From positions 1 to 32,408 of the forward strand of contig QHYU01000079.1 of NCBI GenBank assembly GCA_003224235.1: DNA of 32,408 bases, in the 5' to 3' direction. Position 1 is the stretch's first letter. The number at the start of each line of letters is the position of its first letter. Under the pieces are notes generated by a model. That model was not told the origin of the DNA and did not search any database. It saw nothing but the letters and a program-made list of their open reading frames with translations. This DNA is from Acidobacteriota bacterium (GTDB lineage: Bacteria; Acidobacteriota; Terriglobia; Acidiferrales; UBA7541). Of this stretch, positions 2,807-13,696 are shown piece after piece. The position numbers and the translations under genes are program-made.

Positions 2807-2834
2807 TTGACACCGGCATCTATACATGCATACT
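2807..2834 (+). promoter_or_regulatory. Candidate sigma70 promoter of the TetR gene
   Basis: A perfect -35 hexamer TTGACA (2807-2812) is followed by a 16-bp spacer and CATACT (2829-2834, 4 of 6 matches to the -10 consensus). The -10 box lies inside the palindrome at 2826-2843, the usual arrangement for autorepression by a TetR protein. Confidence 0.55.
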
Positions 2835-2843
2835 GGTTGGTAT
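2826..2843. promoter_or_regulatory. Predicted TetR operator, site 1
   Basis: The 18-mer ATGCATACTGGTTGGTAT fits the palindrome ATAC-N2-AC-N2-GT-N2-GTAT at 11 of 12 defined positions. The same palindrome occurs perfectly at 3542-3559 in front of the exporter genes. It overlaps the -10 box of the regulator promoter, so binding should block its transcription. Confidence 0.6.
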
Positions 2844-2878
2844 GTTATGGAGAGGCGGCAGCAGCGAAGGTGAGTAAG

Positions 2879-3490
2879 ATGGCGACACACCGAAATCCGG
2901 ACTTAACCCGACGCAGTCTGCTAGGAGCAGCCTTTCGAGAAATGTACAAGTCTGGGTTCCAAGCCGCAAGCCTCGACAATATCTTGTCTAACGCGAATGT
3001 CACCAAGGGAGCCCTCTATCATCATTTTGGCAGCAAGCAAGAATTGGGCTACGCAGTGGTGGATGAGCTGATACGCGAGCACATACTCAATAGATGGGTG
3101 CGTTCCTTGGAGAAGGCCGAGAATCCCATCGATGGTCTGTTGGCCATTCTTCGCGCGAAAGAGCCGCACCCTGGCTTTGATCAACGTCTGGGCTGTCCCC
3201 TGAACAACCTGGCACAGGAAATGTCACCTCTGGATGAAGGGTTCCGGAAGCGGCTGGAGGGTGTCTTCCGCGAGTGGCGACAGGGGATCGCGAAAGCGTT
3301 ACGGCGAGGCCAGGAAAGGGGCCAGGTAAGATCTGACGTCGATCCACTTGAATCCGCCGATTTCTTCATTGCTGCCTTAGAAGGCAGCCTGTCCCTGGCG
3401 AAGAACGCTCAGGACACAGACGTGTTTGATAACTGCAAGGCAGGCTTGGCGAGCTATTTGAAAGGCTTGCGCACCCCGGGCTCCAGCTAA
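2879..3490 (+). CDS. TetR/AcrR-family transcriptional regulator
   Basis: The product (203 aa) starts at ATG 2879, with GAAGG at 2866-2870 eight bases upstream. The frame extends further up into the dispersed repeat, but that part is not protein-like. Residues ~9-57 form a typical TetR helix-turn-helix region, including the recognition helix block VTKGALYHHFGSK. The C-terminal ligand domain carries GCPLNNLAQEMS, a motif of the LmrA/YxaF-like and TetR_C_13-type branch. Proteins of this branch usually repress a neighbouring transporter or oxidoreductase and are released by a small hydrophobic ligand. The palindrome shared by its own promoter and the exporter promoter supports repression of itself and the genes from 3595 on. 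The inducer is unknown. Confidence 0.93.
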   Translation: MATHRNPDLTRRSLLGAAFREMYKSGFQAASLDNILSNANVTKGALYHHFGSKQELGYAVVDELIREHILNRWVRSLEKAENPIDGLLAILRAKEPHPGFDQRLGCPLNNLAQEMSPLDEGFRKRLEGVFREWRQGIAKALRRGQERGQVRSDVDPLESADFFIAALEGSLSLAKNAQDTDVFDNCKAGLASYLKGLRTPGSS

Positions 3491-3541
3491 TCAGGAGGGA
3501 ATCCTTGTTTGCTTGGCGAAGGTGGTTTGCGGCGTAACTAA

Positions 3542-3559
3542 ATACCGACTGGTACGTAT
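3542..3559. promoter_or_regulatory. Predicted TetR operator, site 2 (exporter promoter)
   Basis: The 18-mer ATACCGACTGGTACGTAT is symmetric at twelve positions (ATAC-N2-AC-N2-GT-N2-GTAT). It lies in the 104-bp gap between the TetR gene and the first exporter gene, 36 bases before the start at 3595. ACTGGT and the following GTATGTT are shared with site 1 in the same relative positions. Confidence 0.65.
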
Positions 3560-3594: not shown

Positions 3595-4734
3595 ATGAAC
3601 TTCGTTGCCTGGAAGATGCTGGTGGCCGATCGGGCCAAGTATTTCAGCCTGATCTTCGCCATTGCCTTCGCTTCGTTCCTGCTGGCCAATCAGATTTCCA
3701 TTTTCATTGGCATCATGACACGGCCCGCCAGCCAGATTCTCGACGTTGTGGACGCCGATATCTGGGTGATGGATCCCCAAACACTTTATAGCGATGAAGT
3801 GTACGCCCTGCGGGATTACGACCTTTATCGAGTCCGCAGCGTGCCCGGAGTCGAGTGGGCGGTGCCGCTCTACAAGGGGCTGGGACGCGCGAAAGCCCCG
3901 GACGGAAAATTCCGCAACGTGATTCTCTTGGGTGTGGACGATGCGACGCTTGTGGGTGCTCCTCGGAAGATGCTGGTGGGTTCGATCTATGACCTCGGTC
4001 AGCCGGATGCGGCCATCATTGACAAGGCGGGATTCCGGTATTTCTTCCCTGGTGAGCCCCTTCAAGTGGGCAAGACTCTTCAGATGAATGAGAGGCGGGT
4101 CTTGATTGTCGGGATCAGTGACGCATCGGCTCCGTTTCAGAGCTTCCCTGTCCTCCACACGCGCTACAGCCAAGCGCTTGGGTTTGTGGGACGCGAGCGC
4201 AATCTGCTCTCCTTTGTTCTCGCCAAGCCCGTGGCGGGGCTTTCAACTGGGGAGGTGGGCCATCGGATCGAGGCTGCGACGGGACTGAAGGCCAGAAGCA
4301 ATGAAGAGTTTTCCTGGGACGCGTTCCGTTTCTACCTGCGGAACACAGGCATCCCCGTGAACTTCGGCATTACGGTAATGATTGCTCTGATCGTCGGCAC
4401 TGTGGTACCCGGCCAGACCTTTTACATCTTCACCATCGAGAACCTGAAACAGTTTGGCGCTCTGAAGGCCATCGGCGTAACGAATCGGCGAATCATCGCC
4501 ATGATCTTGCTGCAAGCCATGGTTGTGGGCGCCACCGGCTACGCCCTCGGCATGGGCATGGCCGCGGCCTTCTTTGCGAGCTTCTTGAACTATCTGCCGA
4601 CGCGCGGAATCGTTTTGCCCTGGCAGGTCATGGCAGGCATCGCGGTAGTCGTGCTCTTTGTGGTCGGACTGGCCAGCCTGATGAGCATCCGCCGCGTCAT
4701 CGTCCTCGAACCCGCAGTGGTTTTCCGGGGGTAA
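3595..4734 (+). CDS. devC: DevC-like ABC exporter permease (FtsX/MacB fold)
   Basis: The 379-aa product is an inner-membrane permease of the FtsX/MacB type. A first transmembrane segment lies at ~16-40, a large periplasmic domain (~41-255) follows, and three more segments lie at ~258-278, ~302-332 and ~345-365. The N-terminal signature NFVAWKMLVADRAKY and the motif DADIWVMDP are typical of DevC-like permeases, which in cyanobacteria export heterocyst glycolipids with DevA and DevB. The ATPase gene starts four bases after the stop, then come the adaptor and an outer-membrane channel, so the whole transenvelope pump is encoded together. The substrate cannot be read from sequence. The predicted TetR operator 36 bases upstream implies induction by a compound. 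Confidence 0.92.
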   Translation: MNFVAWKMLVADRAKYFSLIFAIAFASFLLANQISIFIGIMTRPASQILDVVDADIWVMDPQTLYSDEVYALRDYDLYRVRSVPGVEWAVPLYKGLGRAKAPDGKFRNVILLGVDDATLVGAPRKMLVGSIYDLGQPDAAIIDKAGFRYFFPGEPLQVGKTLQMNERRVLIVGISDASAPFQSFPVLHTRYSQALGFVGRERNLLSFVLAKPVAGLSTGEVGHRIEAATGLKARSNEEFSWDAFRFYLRNTGIPVNFGITVMIALIVGTVVPGQTFYIFTIENLKQFGALKAIGVTNRRIIAMILLQAMVVGATGYALGMGMAAAFFASFLNYLPTRGIVLPWQVMAGIAVVVLFVVGLASLMSIRRVIVLEPAVVFRG

Positions 4735-4738
4735 GCAC

Positions 4739-5530
4739 ATGGTTGCAGATGGAATTGCGGTTTTCTCGCGTGACGTAACAAAAGTCTTTGGCCGTGGGGA
4801 CACACAGGTCCACGCCCTGCGTGGCATTGACCTTGAAATCCGCCTGGGCGAGCTCACGATGTTGGTCGGGCCGAGCGGCAGCGGCAAGACAACTCTGCTC
4901 AGCGTGATCACAGGTCTGCTCGACGCCACTTCAGGCGAGCTCGTCGTCTTGGGCGAACGCCCCACAGCGCTTTCGCCGGAGGAGCTCATTCTCTTTCGAC
5001 GAGAGAATCTGGGCTTTGTCTTTCAGCAGTACAACTTGATTCCTGCTTTGACCGCCGCAGAAAACGTGGCTGTGCCCTTGCTGGCCGGTGGAGTTAAAAG
5101 GCAGCAGGCAGTCGCGCGAGGCAAAGAGCTCCTGGCTACTCTGGGCATGGCCCATCGGGCCCACGCGTTGCCCTCTGAGCTCTCGGGCGGGGAGCAGCAG
5201 CGGGTGGCCTTGGCCCGAGCACTGGTTCACGAGCCGAGGTTGATCGTTTGCGACGAACCGACGTCAGCCCTTGACGGACGCACCGGTCATGCGGTCATGG
5301 AGCTGTTGAGTGCGACAGCAGTTCGGCCCGACCGCGCCGTCATCATCGTCACCCATGATGCCCGCATTTTCGATTTCGCCGACCAAATCGCCCATATGGA
5401 CGACGGCCGGATTGTGTCCTTAGAGGAAAACCGAAAGAACGGGGCTCTGACGAACGGTCTTGTGGCAGCTTCTGAAACATGGTCATTGGCGGAGCCAGAC
5501 GCAAGGTCTTACACGACGACAGGAGACTAG
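4739..5530 (+). CDS. devA: DevA-like ABC exporter ATP-binding protein
   Basis: The 263-aa product has all the parts of an ABC ATPase of the LolD/MacB/DevA class. These are the Walker A motif GPSGSGKTT (residues 44-52), the Q-loop in VFQQYNLIP, the signature LSGGEQQRVALARAL, the Walker B LIVCDEPTSALD and the switch histidine in VTHD. It should power the FtsX-like permease encoded just upstream by ATP hydrolysis at the inner face of the cytoplasmic membrane. The last ~35 residues after the ATPase core are not conserved. GGGGGTAAG just before the ATG can act as ribosome site. Confidence 0.95.
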   Translation: MVADGIAVFSRDVTKVFGRGDTQVHALRGIDLEIRLGELTMLVGPSGSGKTTLLSVITGLLDATSGELVVLGERPTALSPEELILFRRENLGFVFQQYNLIPALTAAENVAVPLLAGGVKRQQAVARGKELLATLGMAHRAHALPSELSGGEQQRVALARALVHEPRLIVCDEPTSALDGRTGHAVMELLSATAVRPDRAVIIVTHDARIFDFADQIAHMDDGRIVSLEENRKNGALTNGLVAASETWSLAEPDARSYTTTGD

Positions 5531-5534
5531 GATC

Positions 5535-6626
5535 ATGAAGAAAACCATACCTTTGATCGCGGCCATCGCGTTGGTTTTTGCTGTGGGCGCAGTGATTGCC
5601 ATGAAGCCGGTCCGTCATGGGGAACCCCCGCCATCTCCTCCTCCGGCCACCAAGTTTCAATCGGCTGTGGGAGCGGTTGGCTTGGTCGAAGCCAGCACCG
5701 AAAACATTGACCTTAGTTGCGCCGTCTCGGGCATGGTCACAGGGGTGTACGTGAAAGCGGGCGACCGTGTTCAAGCAGGACAGAAGCTCTTCTCGCTGGA
5801 TGACCGCGACCTACAGGCGGATCAACGAGTCAAGCGCGCGGCACTTGAAGCAGCGCGAGCACGCCGCACGAAGCTCGAAGAGCAACCGCGCGCGGAAGAC
5901 ATCCCACCGGCAGAGGCACGCGTGCGCGAGGCGCAGGCGAATTTGGCGGACACAGAGGTACAAGTGAGATTGATCGAAAGCGTCACGGATAGGCGGGCTG
6001 TCCGTGAGGAGGACGTTCAGCGCAGGAGACTTGCATACCAAGCGGCACAGGCGCGTTTGGCCGAGGCGCAGGCCCAACTAGCTTTGTTGAAGGCGGGCGC
6101 CTGGGCGCCCGATATTGCCGTGGCGAAATCCGAGGTGGCCCAGGCAGAAGCTCAGCTCAAGCTGGTTGAGACCAACGTTGATCGTCTAAGCATGCGCGCC
6201 CCGATCGCTGGAGTCATTCTGCAGAACAAAGTACGGCTCGGTCAGTACGGGCAATGCGGCCCGCTCAGTGAGCCTCTAATGATCCTCGGAAGTGTCACTC
6301 CTTTGCATGTTCGCGTGGATGTGGATGAGCACGATGCCTGGCGCGTGCAGGGAGGTGCCCCCGCCCTGGCGTCGCCTCGCGGCAACGGTTCTCTGAGAAT
6401 CCCTCTGGAGTTCGTTCGTTTTGAGCCTTATGTGATCCCTAAAAAGTCGTTGACAGGCGATAGCACCGAACGCGTGGATACACGCGTTCTGCAGGTCATC
6501 TATCGCGTGAAAGACCAGGACGCGCCTCTCTATGTGGGGCAGCAAATGGACGTGTACATCGAAACGCCGCTCACATCGAGGACATTCCGTCAGCATTCCG
6601 GCCCCGCGGTAGGAGGTGGGCAGTGA
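5535..6626 (+). CDS. devB: DevB/HlyD-family periplasmic adaptor
   Basis: The start at ATG 5535 is set by AGGAG (5521-5525) nine bases upstream; the open frame before it lies inside the ATPase gene. The 363-aa product begins with a membrane anchor (KKTIPLIAAIALVFAVGAVI). A half lipoyl motif with VSGMVTGVYVKAGDRVQAGQ comes next, then a long Ala/Glu/Gln/Arg coiled-coil hairpin (~95-205). The second lipoyl half has RAPIAGVI, and a beta-barrel region closes the protein. This is the plan of membrane-fusion proteins that link an inner-membrane exporter to a TolC-like channel. The last residues overlap the start of the channel gene by four bases (GTGA), so the stoichiometric partners are translationally coupled. 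Confidence 0.93.
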   Translation: MKKTIPLIAAIALVFAVGAVIAMKPVRHGEPPPSPPPATKFQSAVGAVGLVEASTENIDLSCAVSGMVTGVYVKAGDRVQAGQKLFSLDDRDLQADQRVKRAALEAARARRTKLEEQPRAEDIPPAEARVREAQANLADTEVQVRLIESVTDRRAVREEDVQRRRLAYQAAQARLAEAQAQLALLKAGAWAPDIAVAKSEVAQAEAQLKLVETNVDRLSMRAPIAGVILQNKVRLGQYGQCGPLSEPLMILGSVTPLHVRVDVDEHDAWRVQGGAPALASPRGNGSLRIPLEFVRFEPYVIPKKSLTGDSTERVDTRVLQVIYRVKDQDAPLYVGQQMDVYIETPLTSRTFRQHSGPAVGGGQ

Positions 6627-8212: not shown

Positions 8213-8740
8213 ATGAGTTTCTATGGACCCAAGCAGTTGGCAGGCAGCATGCGCACGGTGCGCAAGAACACGATTTTAATCGCCGAAGACATTCCGGAAA
8301 AGGACTATGGCTATCGTCCCGTGCCGGAAAGCCGCTCCGTGACGGAAACGCTTGTCCATATTGTGTTTCGATCGCAGTTCGATCGTTTTCTCCACGAGGA
8401 AGAACACCTCTCGTCGCTGGAGGGCTTCGATTTTGGGGCGCTCCTTCAGAAATCGAACCTCGAGGAGAAGCGCGCAAGATCAAAGGACCAGATCGTCGAC
8501 TTATTGCGCACGGAAGGAGAACGGTGGTCTCGGTGGGTGGAGGGCCTTCCAGAGGCGCTGCTGGCTGAACAAATTCGGATGCCCGGCGGTGCTTCGCAAA
8601 GCCGTTTTGAATGGCTGCTCGGGACCAAAGAACACGAAATGCACCATCGGGCGCAGCTCATGGTGATCGAGCGGTTGCTTGGCATCGTGCCTCACCTGAC
8701 ACGAAACCGCCAGCCGGTGCGCGAGACGGCCGAATCTTGA
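8213..8740 (+). CDS. DinB-fold (DinB/YfiT superfamily) protein
   Basis: The 175-aa product follows a strong ribosome site, GAGGAGG (8201-8207). It shows the three-histidine metal site of DinB-like four-helix bundles: His49 in the helix ETLVHIVFRS, and His141 and His145 in KEHEMHHRAQL. Proteins of this superfamily include bacillithiol- and mycothiol-dependent transferases and hydrolases, but many members are uncharacterised, and the name does not imply DNA damage induction. It lies 108 bases after the efflux operon and 49 bases before a dehydrogenase on the same strand. It may therefore belong to the same detoxification region, though no copy of the TetR palindrome was seen in front of it. Confidence 0.9.
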   Translation: MSFYGPKQLAGSMRTVRKNTILIAEDIPEKDYGYRPVPESRSVTETLVHIVFRSQFDRFLHEEEHLSSLEGFDFGALLQKSNLEEKRARSKDQIVDLLRTEGERWSRWVEGLPEALLAEQIRMPGGASQSRFEWLLGTKEHEMHHRAQLMVIERLLGIVPHLTRNRQPVRETAES

Positions 8741-8789: not shown

Positions 8790-9656
8790 ATGATCGATAA
8801 AAAAGTAGCTTTAGTGACGGGAGTATCGTCTGGAATTGGGCGGGCTACCGCAACGCTGCTGTCACGTCGAGGGTTTCGAGTCTTCGGAACGATGCGGAAA
8901 CCCAGTGAGATCAACGGGCCGTTGGAAGGTGTGGAACTGGTTCGGCTGGATGTTCGCGATGAGGAGTCCGTGCGTTCCTGTCTGCGAACCGTGCTCGATC
9001 AAGCCGGGCGAATCGATGCCCTGGTCAACAATGCTGGTTACACGTTGATTGCATCCTTGGAAGAGACCAGCATAGAAGAAGCCAAGGACGTTTTCGAAAC
9101 GAATTTCTTTGGCGTTCTACGAATGAGCCAAGCGCTTCTGCCCATTATGCGGGAGCAAGGGTATGGGCGCATTGCCAACATCAGCTCAGTCCTCGGATTT
9201 CTGCCCGCGCCTTACCAGGGGATCTACGCCGCGAGCAAACATGCTCTCGAGGGCTACTCCGAATCGCTGGATCATGAAGTGAGACAGTTTGGGATTCGCG
9301 TATCCGTGATTGAGCCCGGATTCACTAGAACAAGTATCGGCCAGAATGGTCAGCTAGCCGGTCAGCCCCTCGTGGCTTATGCCAGCGATCGCAATCGCGT
9401 TCTTGATGCCATCCGAGAAAGTATCGCCAAGGGTGAGGACCCTGTCAGAGTAGCTTCGGTTGTCATGGAGGCGCTCACGAGTCGCTCTCCGCGATTGCGA
9501 TATCCAGCCGGGCGCGAGGCGAAGTTTCTCAGCCTGCTGAGGAGATTTGCTCCGGCCAGGCTCTTAGACAACGGCCTTCGCAAACAGTTCGGATTGCAAA
9601 CCCCACGGAGCAGCGATCCACCGCCCGATATCAGGCTGGGCGAGAAGGTTCCGTAG
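8790..9656 (+). CDS. Short-chain dehydrogenase/reductase
   Basis: The 288-aa product is a classical SDR. The cofactor loop TGVSSGIG is at residues 10-17, NNAG at 80-83, Asn105 in ETNFFG, the catalytic serine in NISSVLG (~132/133), and Tyr146 and Lys150 in YAASK. The loop lacks the arginine typical of NADPH preference directly after it, so the cofactor is undecided. AGGAGG lies seven bases before the ATG. The C-terminal ~35 residues beyond the Rossmann domain are variable. The substrate is unknown. Its position after the TetR exporter and DinB genes hints at a role in handling the same class of compound, which is inference only. Confidence 0.93.
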   Translation: MIDKKVALVTGVSSGIGRATATLLSRRGFRVFGTMRKPSEINGPLEGVELVRLDVRDEESVRSCLRTVLDQAGRIDALVNNAGYTLIASLEETSIEEAKDVFETNFFGVLRMSQALLPIMREQGYGRIANISSVLGFLPAPYQGIYAASKHALEGYSESLDHEVRQFGIRVSVIEPGFTRTSIGQNGQLAGQPLVAYASDRNRVLDAIRESIAKGEDPVRVASVVMEALTSRSPRLRYPAGREAKFLSLLRRFAPARLLDNGLRKQFGLQTPRSSDPPPDIRLGEKVP

Positions 9657-9966: not shown

Positions 9967-10314
9967 TTAGGTTCGCTGTTGCGTTGATACATTGGGTTCT
10001 TTCTGCAGGAAAGCCTTCGCCCCGGCCTTCAGAGCCCGATCTTTGTTTCCGCGGTGGTCACGGGCCGACACGACGATGATAGGAATCACCGCAAGGTGAG
10101 TGTTTGCTTTTAGCCTCTCCATGACAACGAATCCGTCGCCGGCGGGCAAACCCAGGTCGAGGATAATCAAGTCCGGTTGGTGCTTGCGTGCCTCCGTGAT
10201 GCTGACAAGCGCATCGGCCGCAAAGAAGGTATCGTAATTGTTTGCTTTGAGGCGGATGTGGTACCCCAGCCGCACGTCGGGATCGTCCTCGATAATGAGA
10301 ATTTTCTTATTCAT
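9967..10314 (-). CDS. Stand-alone response-regulator receiver domain
   Basis: The 115-aa product is a single receiver domain without an output domain. It has the acidic pair Asp10/Asp11, the phosphoacceptor Asp53 in ILDLGLP, the switch Ser83 in VVSARD and the conserved Lys105. Such CheY-like proteins act by protein contact or as phosphate relays. The gene overlaps the end of the upstream REC-histidine kinase gene by eight bases, so that kinase is the natural phosphodonor. The C-terminus is short for a receiver, with alpha5 replaced by PNVSTQQRT, which may affect dimerisation. Function beyond signal relay cannot be inferred. Confidence 0.9.
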   Translation of the reverse strand: MNKKILIIEDDPDVRLGYHIRLKANNYDTFFAADALVSITEARKHQPDLIILDLGLPAGDGFVVMERLKANTHLAVIPIIVVSARDHRGNKDRALKAGAKAFLQKEPNVSTQQRT

Positions 10315-11890
10315 GATGGATAGTTCTCGTGTTGATTTCCGACTTGATTAGCGCTTCGATTCTTGCGGCCATCTTCCCCACGGTGTTCTCCGAGAGTGCG
10401 ACTGCGTCCGTGGGGGGCGGCTTCAGGAATTTGTAAGAAACTGAAAAGGTCAGGCCTGCTTGCTTAAGTTGTTCAAGTTGCCCGAATTGTTCTCGGATCC
10501 GTTTGGCAAGTACTGCCGCGCCTTTGTCATTCGCAAAGGCCACGACAAAGAAGACTTCCCCGGCTCCTCCGGAATCCATTTTCGGCAAGAGCACATCCAA
10601 ATCCGGAAGCATACATTTTTGTATGAGGATGCGGCTCTCGCGCGACCATCGCTCGCGCTTCTCCTTGGAAAGCCAGCCATCCTGTGAGCCAATCTCCACG
10701 CTCATCAGGGCGACCGAATCCGCCGGCCAGGCTTCATTCCTGAGCAGCGGGGCAATCAGGCTGCCTAGAGAAAAAACGGGCAATGTAAACGAAAAGATGG
10801 CTCCTTGCCCCGGAGGGCTCTGGACCCAGATTTGGCCACCCTGTCGCGTAACCAACTCTTTGCAGATGTATAACCCAAGTCCAAGGCCCTCGCGGGCAGC
10901 CAAAGCAGGAGCTGCTACTTGATAGAGGCGTTCAAAAATCCGCTCGGTCATATCCGGGCTGATCCCGCATCCCGAGTCAGAAACCTCCACGAGCAAGAAA
11001 CTCGGATCTGCCTCGAGCGCCCGGGCCTGGACCTTCACTGCGCCGCCGTTGGGCGTAAACTTAATGGCGTTATCGAACAAAATGAGCAGGATCTGCCGTA
11101 AGCGAGTCGGATCGGCGTAAGCGGACGGCACGCGCGTGGAAAGATCGAAGGAGAGAGTAATTTCTTTGGCTAGGGCAGTTGCTTGGAGCGTACTAACGGT
11201 GTAAACGATGGCATCGGAAACGGAGACACATTGCGGCTCAACGTTGAGTTTACCCGCCTGCGCTCGAGTGGCCTCGAGCAAGTCATCAATCATGGATTGA
11301 AGCTGCCGCACATTCCTCAAAATGATTTGGAGGTACTCGCGCTGTTCCGGTTTCGTCTCACCCGCCAATCCATCCGCGACAATCGTCACAAATTGATAGA
11401 TCGCAGTGAGGGGCGAACGAAGCTCGTGCGATACATGGGACAGGAAATCATCCTTCAGCTGTAGCTGCAGTTTCCTGATCTGGTCTGTCTCCACCTGCAT
11501 ACGCTGGCGCTCGATGGCATAGCGCAGGGATCGAAGAAGCGCGTAGGTCTCGATTTGGCCTTTGATGAGATAGTCTTGGGCGCCCTCCTGCAAAGCTTGA
11601 GCGGCCAATACTTCGTCGTCCAGGCCCGTCAGCACAACCAGCGGGACGCTGGGCGCGACCGCGTGCGCCTGCCGCACGGCTCCTAATCCTTGTGCATCGG
11701 GCAACCCGAGGTCGAGCAAGATAATGTTCACCGCACTCGCCGCAAGATGATGCACGGCCTCGCTCATGCACCCGAGGTGTGTCAATTCGATTTTGAGCGA
11801 GCCTGGCTCATTGAGCATCTCGCGCAGCAAACGGGCATCGCCGGCGTTGTCCTCGACAAGAAGAATTCTGATGGTTTTTTCGCTCATCAC
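10307..11890 (-). CDS. Hybrid receiver-histidine kinase with a degenerate GGDEF-like tail
   Basis: The 527-aa cytosolic product has an N-terminal receiver (~7-125) with Asp60 in LLDLGLP. A dimerisation helix carries His155 in [10 protein letters not shown]. The ATPase domain has Asn274 in [14 protein letters not shown] (305-310) and GLGLGL (335-340). Residues ~385-490 look like a decayed GGDEF domain: [14 protein letters not shown] stands in place of GGDEF, followed by LAKRIREQF and FSVSY. There is no transmembrane segment, so input probably comes through the receiver. GTG 11890 and ATG 11887 both overlap the upstream stop. The kinase likely receives phosphate from upstream partners and passes it to the receiver encoded next. 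Confidence 0.92.
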
Positions 11891-12345
11891 TTTGCAACGG
11901 TCGGGAGTTTGACAATGGCCAGCCAGAAATTGTCGATAGTCTTGACGACTTTCAGGAACTGGTCCAGGTCCACAGGCTTGGTGATGTAGCAGTTGGCATG
12001 AAGCTGGTAACTCCGCAGGATGTCCTCTTCAGCCGCCGAGGTGGTCAAGATGACCACAGGGATACTTTTCAGGCTGGGGTCCAGCTTAATTTCCTCCAGA
12101 ACCTCCCGGCCACCCTTTTTGGGCAGGTTCAGATCCAACAGGATAAGATCCGGGCGAGGCGCATTGGCGTGCTTCCCTTGCCGCCACAGGAAGGATGTCG
12201 CTTCCATCCCGTCCGAAGCAACATGCAGGGTGTTTTGCACCTTGGCGTCTCGCAGGGCCTCCTGAGTGAGCCGTACATCGCCGGGGCTGTCTTCCACCAA
12301 GAGAATCTCTATGGGCGTGCCGTTTTCCCCTATGTTTATGGCCAT
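11887..12345 (-). CDS. Rcp1-like response-regulator receiver
   Basis: The 152-aa product from ATG 12345 starts one base after the stop of the PAS kinase gene; a TTG at 12369 would lie inside that gene. It is a single receiver with Asp19/Asp23 around VEDSPGD, phosphoacceptor Asp71 in [11 protein letters not shown], the switch residues TTS (101-103) and Lys123 in ITKPVD. The tail FWLAIVKLP is typical of Rcp1-type receivers, which partner with phytochrome-class histidine kinases. Its direct upstream neighbour is such a kinase, so the pair is probably cognate. It overlaps the next gene by a few bases (GTGATG), consistent with coupled expression. Confidence 0.92.
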
Positions 12346-12346
12346 T

Positions 12347-13696
12347 TCATCGCTTTTCCGGGAGAGCAAAGTAAAAGGTCGAGCCCTTTCCGGGCTCGGA
12401 CTCTACCCACATCCGGCCGCCGTGGCGTTCCGCGATCTTCTTGCACACCGTCAAGCCGATTCCGGTGCCGGAAAACTCTTCTCGGCCGTGCAACCGCTGA
12501 AACATAACGAAAATCTTCTCGAAGTACTTAGGGTCGATGCCAAGTCCGTTGTCTCGCATGGAAAAGATCCATTCGTTGCCGCCATTTTTCTTGGCAGATA
12601 CGTGGACGCGCGGGAGTTCCGCGCTGCGATACTTGATGGCATTGCCGACGACGTTCTGAAATAGCTGTACCAATTGAGCGCCATCTGCAATCACGGTGGG
12701 CAGCGGATCGTGCGTGACCACCACGCCGCTCTCCTGGATCGCACCCTCCAAATTCAAGAGCGCCTGTTCCAATGCGGCTTCACTGGAAGTTTCACGCAGC
12801 TCCTTTCCTGTTGTCCCCACACGGCAATAGGCCAGCAGATCTCCGATCAAGAGCTGCATGCGATGGGCCCCGTCCACCGCATAAGCGATGAACTCGTCGG
12901 CGTCGGAGTCCAGACGCCCCTTGTAGCGTTTGGCCAGGAGCTGCGTGTAACTGGCTACCATGCGCAAGGGTTCCTGCAGGTCGTGCGCGGCGATGTAGGC
13001 AAACTGCTGCAGTTCATCATTCGAGCGCTTCAATTCCACCGACCTTCGCTCCCGTGCTTCCTGATGTTTCAGGGCTTCCTCGGATTTCTTGCGCTCGGTG
13101 ATATCACTCAAGATAGCTGTAAAGAAAGTATCTTCGCGGGTCTTCCAACTGGACAGCGAGAGTTCGAGAGGAAACTCTGTGCCGTCTTTTCTCCGGCCGG
13201 CCAATTCGACGGTCTTACCGATGACGCGGGCCTCGCCGGTCCTCAGAAAGCGATCCAATCCTTGCCGATGAGGATCGCGGAACCGCTCTGGCATGAGGAT
13301 GGTGAGTGGCTGGCCAATGATCTCCGTCGGGGAATAAGAAAAGATACGCTCGGCCGCAGGATTGAAGTAGACGATCTTGCCACAGCTGTTGGCCGAGAGA
13401 ATGGCGTCGTTTGCCGCTTCCGCAAGGTTTCGAAACTTCTCTTCACTTTCCGTGCGCTGGGCCACACGGTCTTCCAGATCTATCGTCAACTGAATTAACC
13501 CGGCATTGGTACGCTGCAATTCATCATGCGCTGCCCGGAGTTGCGCCGTTTGTTCATCGATGCGCTGCTCTAATTCCAACGACAGTGCGATCAATCCACG
13601 GTTTGTCTCGGCCAGTTCCGCCTGGAGCGCGTGAATGGTTTCCTCGGCATCCGTCGACGGTTGCTGGAAATCGTACTTGGACATTCCGCTTGCCAT
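12347..13696 (-). CDS. PAS-domain histidine kinase of the phytochrome kinase class
   Basis: The 449-aa product opens with a long coiled coil (~20-85), followed by a PAS domain (~85-205) ending in [12 protein letters not shown]. The dimerisation domain has His238 in AHDLQEPLR, the motif of cyanobacterial-phytochrome-type kinases. The ATPase domain has Asn352 in [14 protein letters not shown] (382-387) and GTGIGL (410-415). No transmembrane helix or GAF/PHY chromophore domain is present, so it senses something in the cytoplasm or receives its signal from partner proteins. AGGAG lies two bases before ATG 13696, and a second ATG at 13684 is possible. It follows the Rsb genes and precedes an Rcp1-like receiver, linking the partner-switch to phosphorelay. 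Confidence 0.93.

Follow-up and report, generated by a model that had tools for sequence, protein, structure and literature searches.

Background

Palindromes of the ATAC type are bound by many DNA-binding proteins of the TetR family. The described regulators that are closest to the one considered here are the Streptomyces autoregulator receptors ArpA, ScbR, CprB and AvaR1 on the one hand and the NemR/AcuR/AltR branch on the other. For AvaR1, the 18-bp motif AWWCCRBBHDDNMSGTWT has been published (PMC5744401), and in the structure of the CprB-DNA complex the residues Lys43, Gly44, Tyr47 and Phe48 touch bases (PMC4150764). The response of NemR to reactive chlorine was tied to Cys106 and Lys175 in a review (PMC7464077), and in a later sensor study the cysteine was needed and no lysine bond was present in the construct used (PMC8748444). 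AltR, a relative of NemR, is released by thiosulfinates via a conserved cysteine (PMC13178969). On the exporter side, DevCA has been described as MacB-type (PMC5985334). These statements, and the comparisons that are based on them below, refer to excerpts of the cited articles.

The window, that is the whole stretch of 32,408 bases that was analysed, contains a tetR gene followed by genes for a DevCAB-TolC-like exporter, and two 18-bp palindromes lie in front of tetR and devC, respectively (Table 1). The TetR-family repressor encoded between the palindromes would use both of them as operators, and it probably represses itself and the exporter operon through these two sites. The kind of system is ordinary, an autoregulated TetR protein guarding an exporter; less ordinary are the conservation of the predicted operator across phyla, its promoter-shaped asymmetry, the mixed family resemblance of the regulator and the apparently swapped partner. 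In the open PMC literature, with subscription journals outside its scope, none of the listed titles describes this TetR subfamily, and among the matches listed for the exact operator words no title deals with TetR operators.

Table 1. Coordinates of the predicted regulatory elements, genes and residues of the tetR-devC region in the window.
Feature	Position	Strand	Evidence
-35 hexamer TTGACA of the tetR promoter	2807..2812	+	Consensus scan, 10/12 with CATACT, 16-bp spacing
-10 hexamer CATACT, entirely within operator 1	2829..2834	+	Consensus scan; conserved at homologues
Operator 1 (predicted), tetR promoter, ATGCATACTGGTTGGTAT	2826..2843	.	Weak half left, strong half right; pattern, homologue conservation, matrix
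Operator 2 (predicted), before devC, ATACCGACTGGTACGTAT	3542..3559	.	Strong half left, weak half right; pattern, conservation, matrix
tetR, 203 aa, TetR_N and TetR_C_13	2879..3490	+	Domain searches; alternative start codon GTG at 2870
Recognition helix region VTKGALYHHF (residues 41-50)	2999..3028	+	Alignment; CprB contacts (PMC4150764, excerpt)
Codon of Cys106, invariant in 108/108 rows	3194..3196	+	TetR homologue alignment
Codon of Lys175, Lys in 106/108 rows	3401..3403	+	TetR homologue alignment
devC-like, MacB/FtsX-type permease, 379 aa	3595..4734	+	ORF and family searches
devA-like, ATPase, 263 aa	4739..5530	+	ORF and family searches
devB-like, membrane-fusion protein	5535..6626	+	Chosen ATG; start of the mechanical ORF at 5460
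NodT/TolC-type outer-membrane channel, 493 aa	6623..8104	+	TIGR01845 above its cutoff
DinB-superfamily protein, probably co-transcribed	8213..8740	+	Family search; no promoter or terminator match in preceding gap
SDR oxidoreductase, probably co-transcribed	8790..9656	+	Family searches; clusters with devCAB in L156 and L158

Two predicted operators in the window and in the host genome

A search of the window with the pattern ATACNNACNNGTNNGTAT, allowing up to two mismatches, yielded exactly two matches, one at 2826-2843 with one mismatch and one at 3542-3559 with none, at 0.18 matches expected by chance; two matches were obtained in 1 of 100 shuffles. The palindrome that a preliminary description had reported as shared by the two promoters was recovered at the same positions, with 11/12 and 12/12 matching nucleotides. 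Its proposed overlap with a -10 box was borne out, as the whole CATACT hexamer lies inside the first site, and the 35 bases that separate each site from its start codon (ATG 2879 and ATG 3595) agree with the distance of 36 bases given earlier for the devC-like gene. At operator 2, the consensus promoter scan recognised no promoter.

When the host genome (4,565,077 bases or 4.57 Mb, 237 contigs) was scanned with the bare pattern, 27 places with up to two mismatches were detected, compared with 23 for the mirror-image control pattern. Accordingly, the bare pattern is weak at the genome level and proves little by itself. Four places were left at no more than one mismatch: both sites of the window and, on contig C179, a pair of copies with the same sequence. 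A scoring matrix was built on 107 sites found at TetR homologues, to which three near-copies contributed but the window did not, and was applied solely to the 27 pattern matches. The window sites scored 24.4 (operator 2) and 22.5 and were the best two among these places, followed by values of 15.1, 14.5 and 14.5, which stand at the bottom of the range since the training sites themselves span 14.5 to 28.1. The C179 copies (positions 3641-3658 and 3875-3892 on this contig, 234 bp apart) are located in a stretch that is repeated within one 546-aa open frame; being part of a coding repeat of one frame, they are probably not operators and were rejected as regulon members. At C27:4806, the match (matrix score 15.1) overlaps with the beginning of a mechanical ORF and represents a possible further regulon member. 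All further places score at most 13.7.

Conservation and asymmetry of the operator at TetR homologues

Homologues of the window TetR were collected from two sources, 299 genomes belonging to the same class, of which 24 matched at E <= 1e-25, and 256 relatives on genome contigs, of which the best 80 were used. This gave 108 loci including the window. Without three duplicates, one locus lacking upstream DNA and the window itself, 103 non-redundant tetR homologues were available. Of these, 84 have a site with a fit of 10/12 or better in the 250 bp upstream (dinucleotide shuffles, 0.94), and 72 have one with a fit of 11/12 or better (shuffles, 0.04); the mirror pattern at 10/12 or better occurs upstream in 7/103, with about one expected. 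The 19 homologues devoid of a 10/12 site include 12 with the usual recognition helix, and of all homologues with 30-42% identity, six in number, two have the site. As in the window, a further site lies in the 130 bp behind tetR at 18/104 homologues versus 0.4 expected, namely at one of 43 loci with an MMPL gene directly after tetR and at 17 of 61 elsewhere. At L017, the nearest homologue (71-72% identity), the upstream site reaches only 9/12 and there is none downstream; the operator of this locus may be spaced differently. The sequence CTTCATACCGTTCGGTAT, holding the shorter palindrome ATACCGTTCGGTAT, is located 45 bp before the tetR gene of L017.

The consensus of 67 tetR-proximal sites, window included, is ATACATACTGGTYGGTAT with flanking C and G and with TTGAC upstream. 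In 48 of the 85 upstream regions with a site, this TTGAC begins 19-21 bp ahead of it. Since it stands at a fixed promoter distance from the site (TTGACA-16-CATACT in the window), the -10 hexamer CATACT can be regarded as part of the operator, and in tetR promoters one operator half-site doubles as the -10 hexamer. Two strong halves are combined in only 4/104 sites versus 21.6 expected under independent halves. The weak half is on the promoter side in 53/53 unequal upstream sites with TTGA at promoter distance, and in the downstream sites the strong half is on the left in 17/19 and both halves are strong in 2/19, counts that overstate the number of separate events because rows that are related do not represent independent cases. 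The window and the family agree in that the strong halves face tetR. Some gammaproteobacterial sites, at loci of the L053 type, lie farther away, 100-130 bp before tetR, and in the opposite orientation: the strong half is on the left in 12/85 upstream sites, none of them with a reverse-strand TTGA at promoter distance. Overlapping ACC-N4-GGT registers, which would permit a dimer-of-dimers reading, were noticed by eye in the site logo, and no claim is made on them.

Domain composition and candidate sensor residues of TetR

The helix-turn-helix domain TetR_N was detected with 46.2 bits (Pfam cutoff 24). The whole protein falls below the cutoffs of the NCBIfam models for AcuR (NF051457, 99.7 of 247 bits) and ScbR (NF041196, 86.6 of 150 bits). 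With the DNA-binding domain alone ScbR is the best NCBIfam model (61.1 bits; AcuR 42.7), and with the sensor domain alone it is AcuR (54.2 bits; ScbR 26.5). A PDB search placed the DNA-binding domain nearest to AvaR1 and CprB, and the sensor domain nearest to 3qbm and 3bru, the latter of which we take to be AcuR. The window TetR looks like a mosaic of an autoregulator-receptor-like DNA-reading domain and an AcuR/NemR-like sensor, a reading based on score differences and not on proven recombination. In the homologues L052 and L063, scanned as whole proteins, ScbR outscores AcuR.

At the base-contacting positions of CprB the window TetR aligns without gaps and carries Lys43, Gly44, Tyr47 and His48. 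Of the 88 rows with a site, 87, 88 and 85 retain the first three residues, respectively, and position 48 is occupied by His in 65 and by Tyr in 23. With respect to the sensor domain, the invariant Cys106 and the near-invariant Lys175 align with Cys106 and Lys175 of E. coli NemR, which suggests a thiol-reactive electrophile or oxidant as the best guess for the inducer class.

Probable extent of the exporter operon and apparent exchange of target genes

Neither the tolC-dinB gap nor the dinB-SDR gap contains a promoter-like or terminator-like match. In related loci the SDR gene is clustered with the exporter genes: at L156 an SDR gene with 78% identity follows tolC, and at L158 an SDR gene overlaps the start of devC. 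The dinB and SDR genes had initially been placed outside the core regulon for want of a site of their own. In view of the gaps and of the clustering in relatives this exclusion does not hold, and both genes are probably co-transcribed with devC-devA-devB-tolC. Frames on the minus strand at 9967-13696 that resemble response regulators and sensor kinases by eye adjoin the exporter cluster. The reversed locus L155 (10,415 bases; reverse strand, 939-2110) contains devC-devA genes with about 70% identity to those of the window, directly followed by a frame that matches only the tail of tolC (90%), with no devB, which points to a deletion or an assembly fault.

Searches from both the tetR side and the devC side revealed the tetR-devC pairing only in the window. 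Among the 107 other TetR loci, many of them with only 1.5 kb of flanking DNA, no devC beside tetR was matched. The comparison of orthologous TetR-devC pairs that had been suggested as a check therefore finds no pair to compare. In many Gammaproteobacteria the tetR homologue is followed by MMPL plus LolA-like genes, in Acidobacteriota by genes for SnoaL-like, LytTR-domain or unassigned proteins, and at L017, which the window joins with a support of 100/99 in the tree of the 108 TetR proteins, by an RND adaptor gene. With coarse class labels, 20 changes of the target class were counted on this tree versus 48.6 in shuffles, so the targets follow clades and yet changed repeatedly. As judged from these comparisons, what is conserved is tetR together with the gene behind it, whichever this may be.

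Seen from the exporter, 13 of 16 DevC orthologues (51-84% identity) have a TetR gene of another kind upstream (L125, seen in L154, as well as L126, L127, L129-L136, L139 and L140). Two of these regulators were scanned and contain TetR_C_33; the rest are related to them by BLASTP. The remaining orthologues are L128, which is preceded by an SDR gene, and L137 and L138, which run up to the ends of their contigs. Since homologues of the window TetR occur without devC and the DevC orthologues usually have another TetR, the window exporter appears to have exchanged its regulator. The usual DevC-side TetR had no match in the window genome at E <= 1e-5, an empty result that shows nothing by itself. 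The nearest devC (84% identity) is located in another family of the class, so that lateral movement seems likely. Plasmid records matching the window TetR number 973, all under 60% identity.

Proposed regulatory model and alternative explanations

We infer binding and repression at both sites as follows. As the -10 hexamer of tetR lies inside operator 1, a repressor bound there would block RNA polymerase, and tetR would repress itself; the weak half of this operator would also have to serve as -10 hexamer. On operator 2, the repressor would shut off devC-devA-devB-tolC and probably also dinB and the SDR gene behind them. An inducer acting on the sensor domain would make the repressor let go, and the pump would be made. 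The earlier proposal that TetR represses itself and the DevCAB-TolC pump is well supported by the conservation of the site at homologues.

It is unlikely that TetR represses only itself via operator 1, with operator 2 being a relic or of minor importance and devC being driven by read-through from tetR. Such an arrangement would fit the lack of a recognised promoter at operator 2, the 86/104 homologues that have no second site and the next gene that often lies close behind tetR, but operator 2 is the better match of the two (12/12, matrix score 24.4), and the second site is kept in 18/104 homologues at an expectation of 0.4. Even less likely is another TetR-family protein of the same genome as the main binder. 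Although the genome encodes two further relatives with 28-30% identity and ATAC-type palindromes suit many TetR proteins, the palindrome accompanies the homologues of the window TetR across phyla, and the DevC orthologues with a different TetR lack it, the best match within 1.5 kb being 9/12. A chance resemblance of the two sites, which might be suggested by the 27 loose genome matches compared with 23 obtained with the control pattern, is hardly credible in view of the fixed promoter distance, the matrix gap between the window sites and the next genome match, and the conservation at homologues, on which a chance origin was rejected even though the bare pattern is unremarkable genome-wide.

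Repression of tetR and of the exporter operon by the window TetR may be one case of a broader scheme, on which we are evenly divided. According to this scheme, a widespread TetR subfamily of Acidobacteriota and Proteobacteria would join an autoregulator-like DNA-reading domain and palindrome with a NemR/AcuR-like Cys106 sensor and act as a portable switch on unrelated genes (DevCAB-TolC, RND pump, MMPL, SnoaL-like and others). In its tetR promoters, the -10 box would be supplied by the weak half of an unequal operator. The analysis provides a concrete predicted operator for the subfamily at more than 100 loci, mostly of uncultured bacteria, and targets can therefore be listed from sequence; moreover, it names a likely sensing residue and presents one case of a repressor-operator pair moved between unrelated genes and one of an exporter changing its repressor, both as predicted.

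Comparison with known regulators and exporters

The window combines devC-, devA- and devB-like genes with a NodT/TolC-type gene in one run, as in the DevBCA-TolC and MacAB-TolC exporters, but differs from DevBCA in that all three proteins stay below the NCBIfam cutoffs (DevC 60.2 of 290, DevA 220 of 296 and DevB 63.8 of 129 bits).

The autoregulator receptors resemble the window TetR in the DNA-binding domain, as indicated by AvaR1 and CprB in the PDB and by ScbR in NCBIfam, and in the type of operator. The excerpted AvaR1 motif, an autoregulatory element (ARE), is fitted by operator 2 at 17/18 positions and by 100/107 homologue sites at 15 or more; the fit of operator 1 (15/18) is not distinctive, as 107 of 32,391 window positions reach 15. 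The window TetR differs from these receptors by its sensor domain, which is closer to AcuR, by the score of the whole protein below the ScbR cutoff, and by His or Tyr in its family in place of Phe48 of CprB.

With the NemR/AcuR/AltR branch the window TetR has the TetR_C_13 sensor domain in common, at 27% identity to NemR. It differs by its recognition helix, VTKGALYHHF instead of VPKGSFYHYF. The upstream region of nemR holds TAGACCGACTGGTCTA, presumably the NemR box, and no 18-mer of the window-operator type was found near nemR. In the excerpt on the Pantoea alt cluster, the unassigned inverted repeat IR2 is given as TTACCAAC-N6-GTTGGTAA, with a half-site that is nearly the ATACCRAC of the present family and with wider spacing (PMC13178969). 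According to the same source, AltR is likewise autoregulated via an inverted repeat over the -10 region and needs its conserved cysteine.
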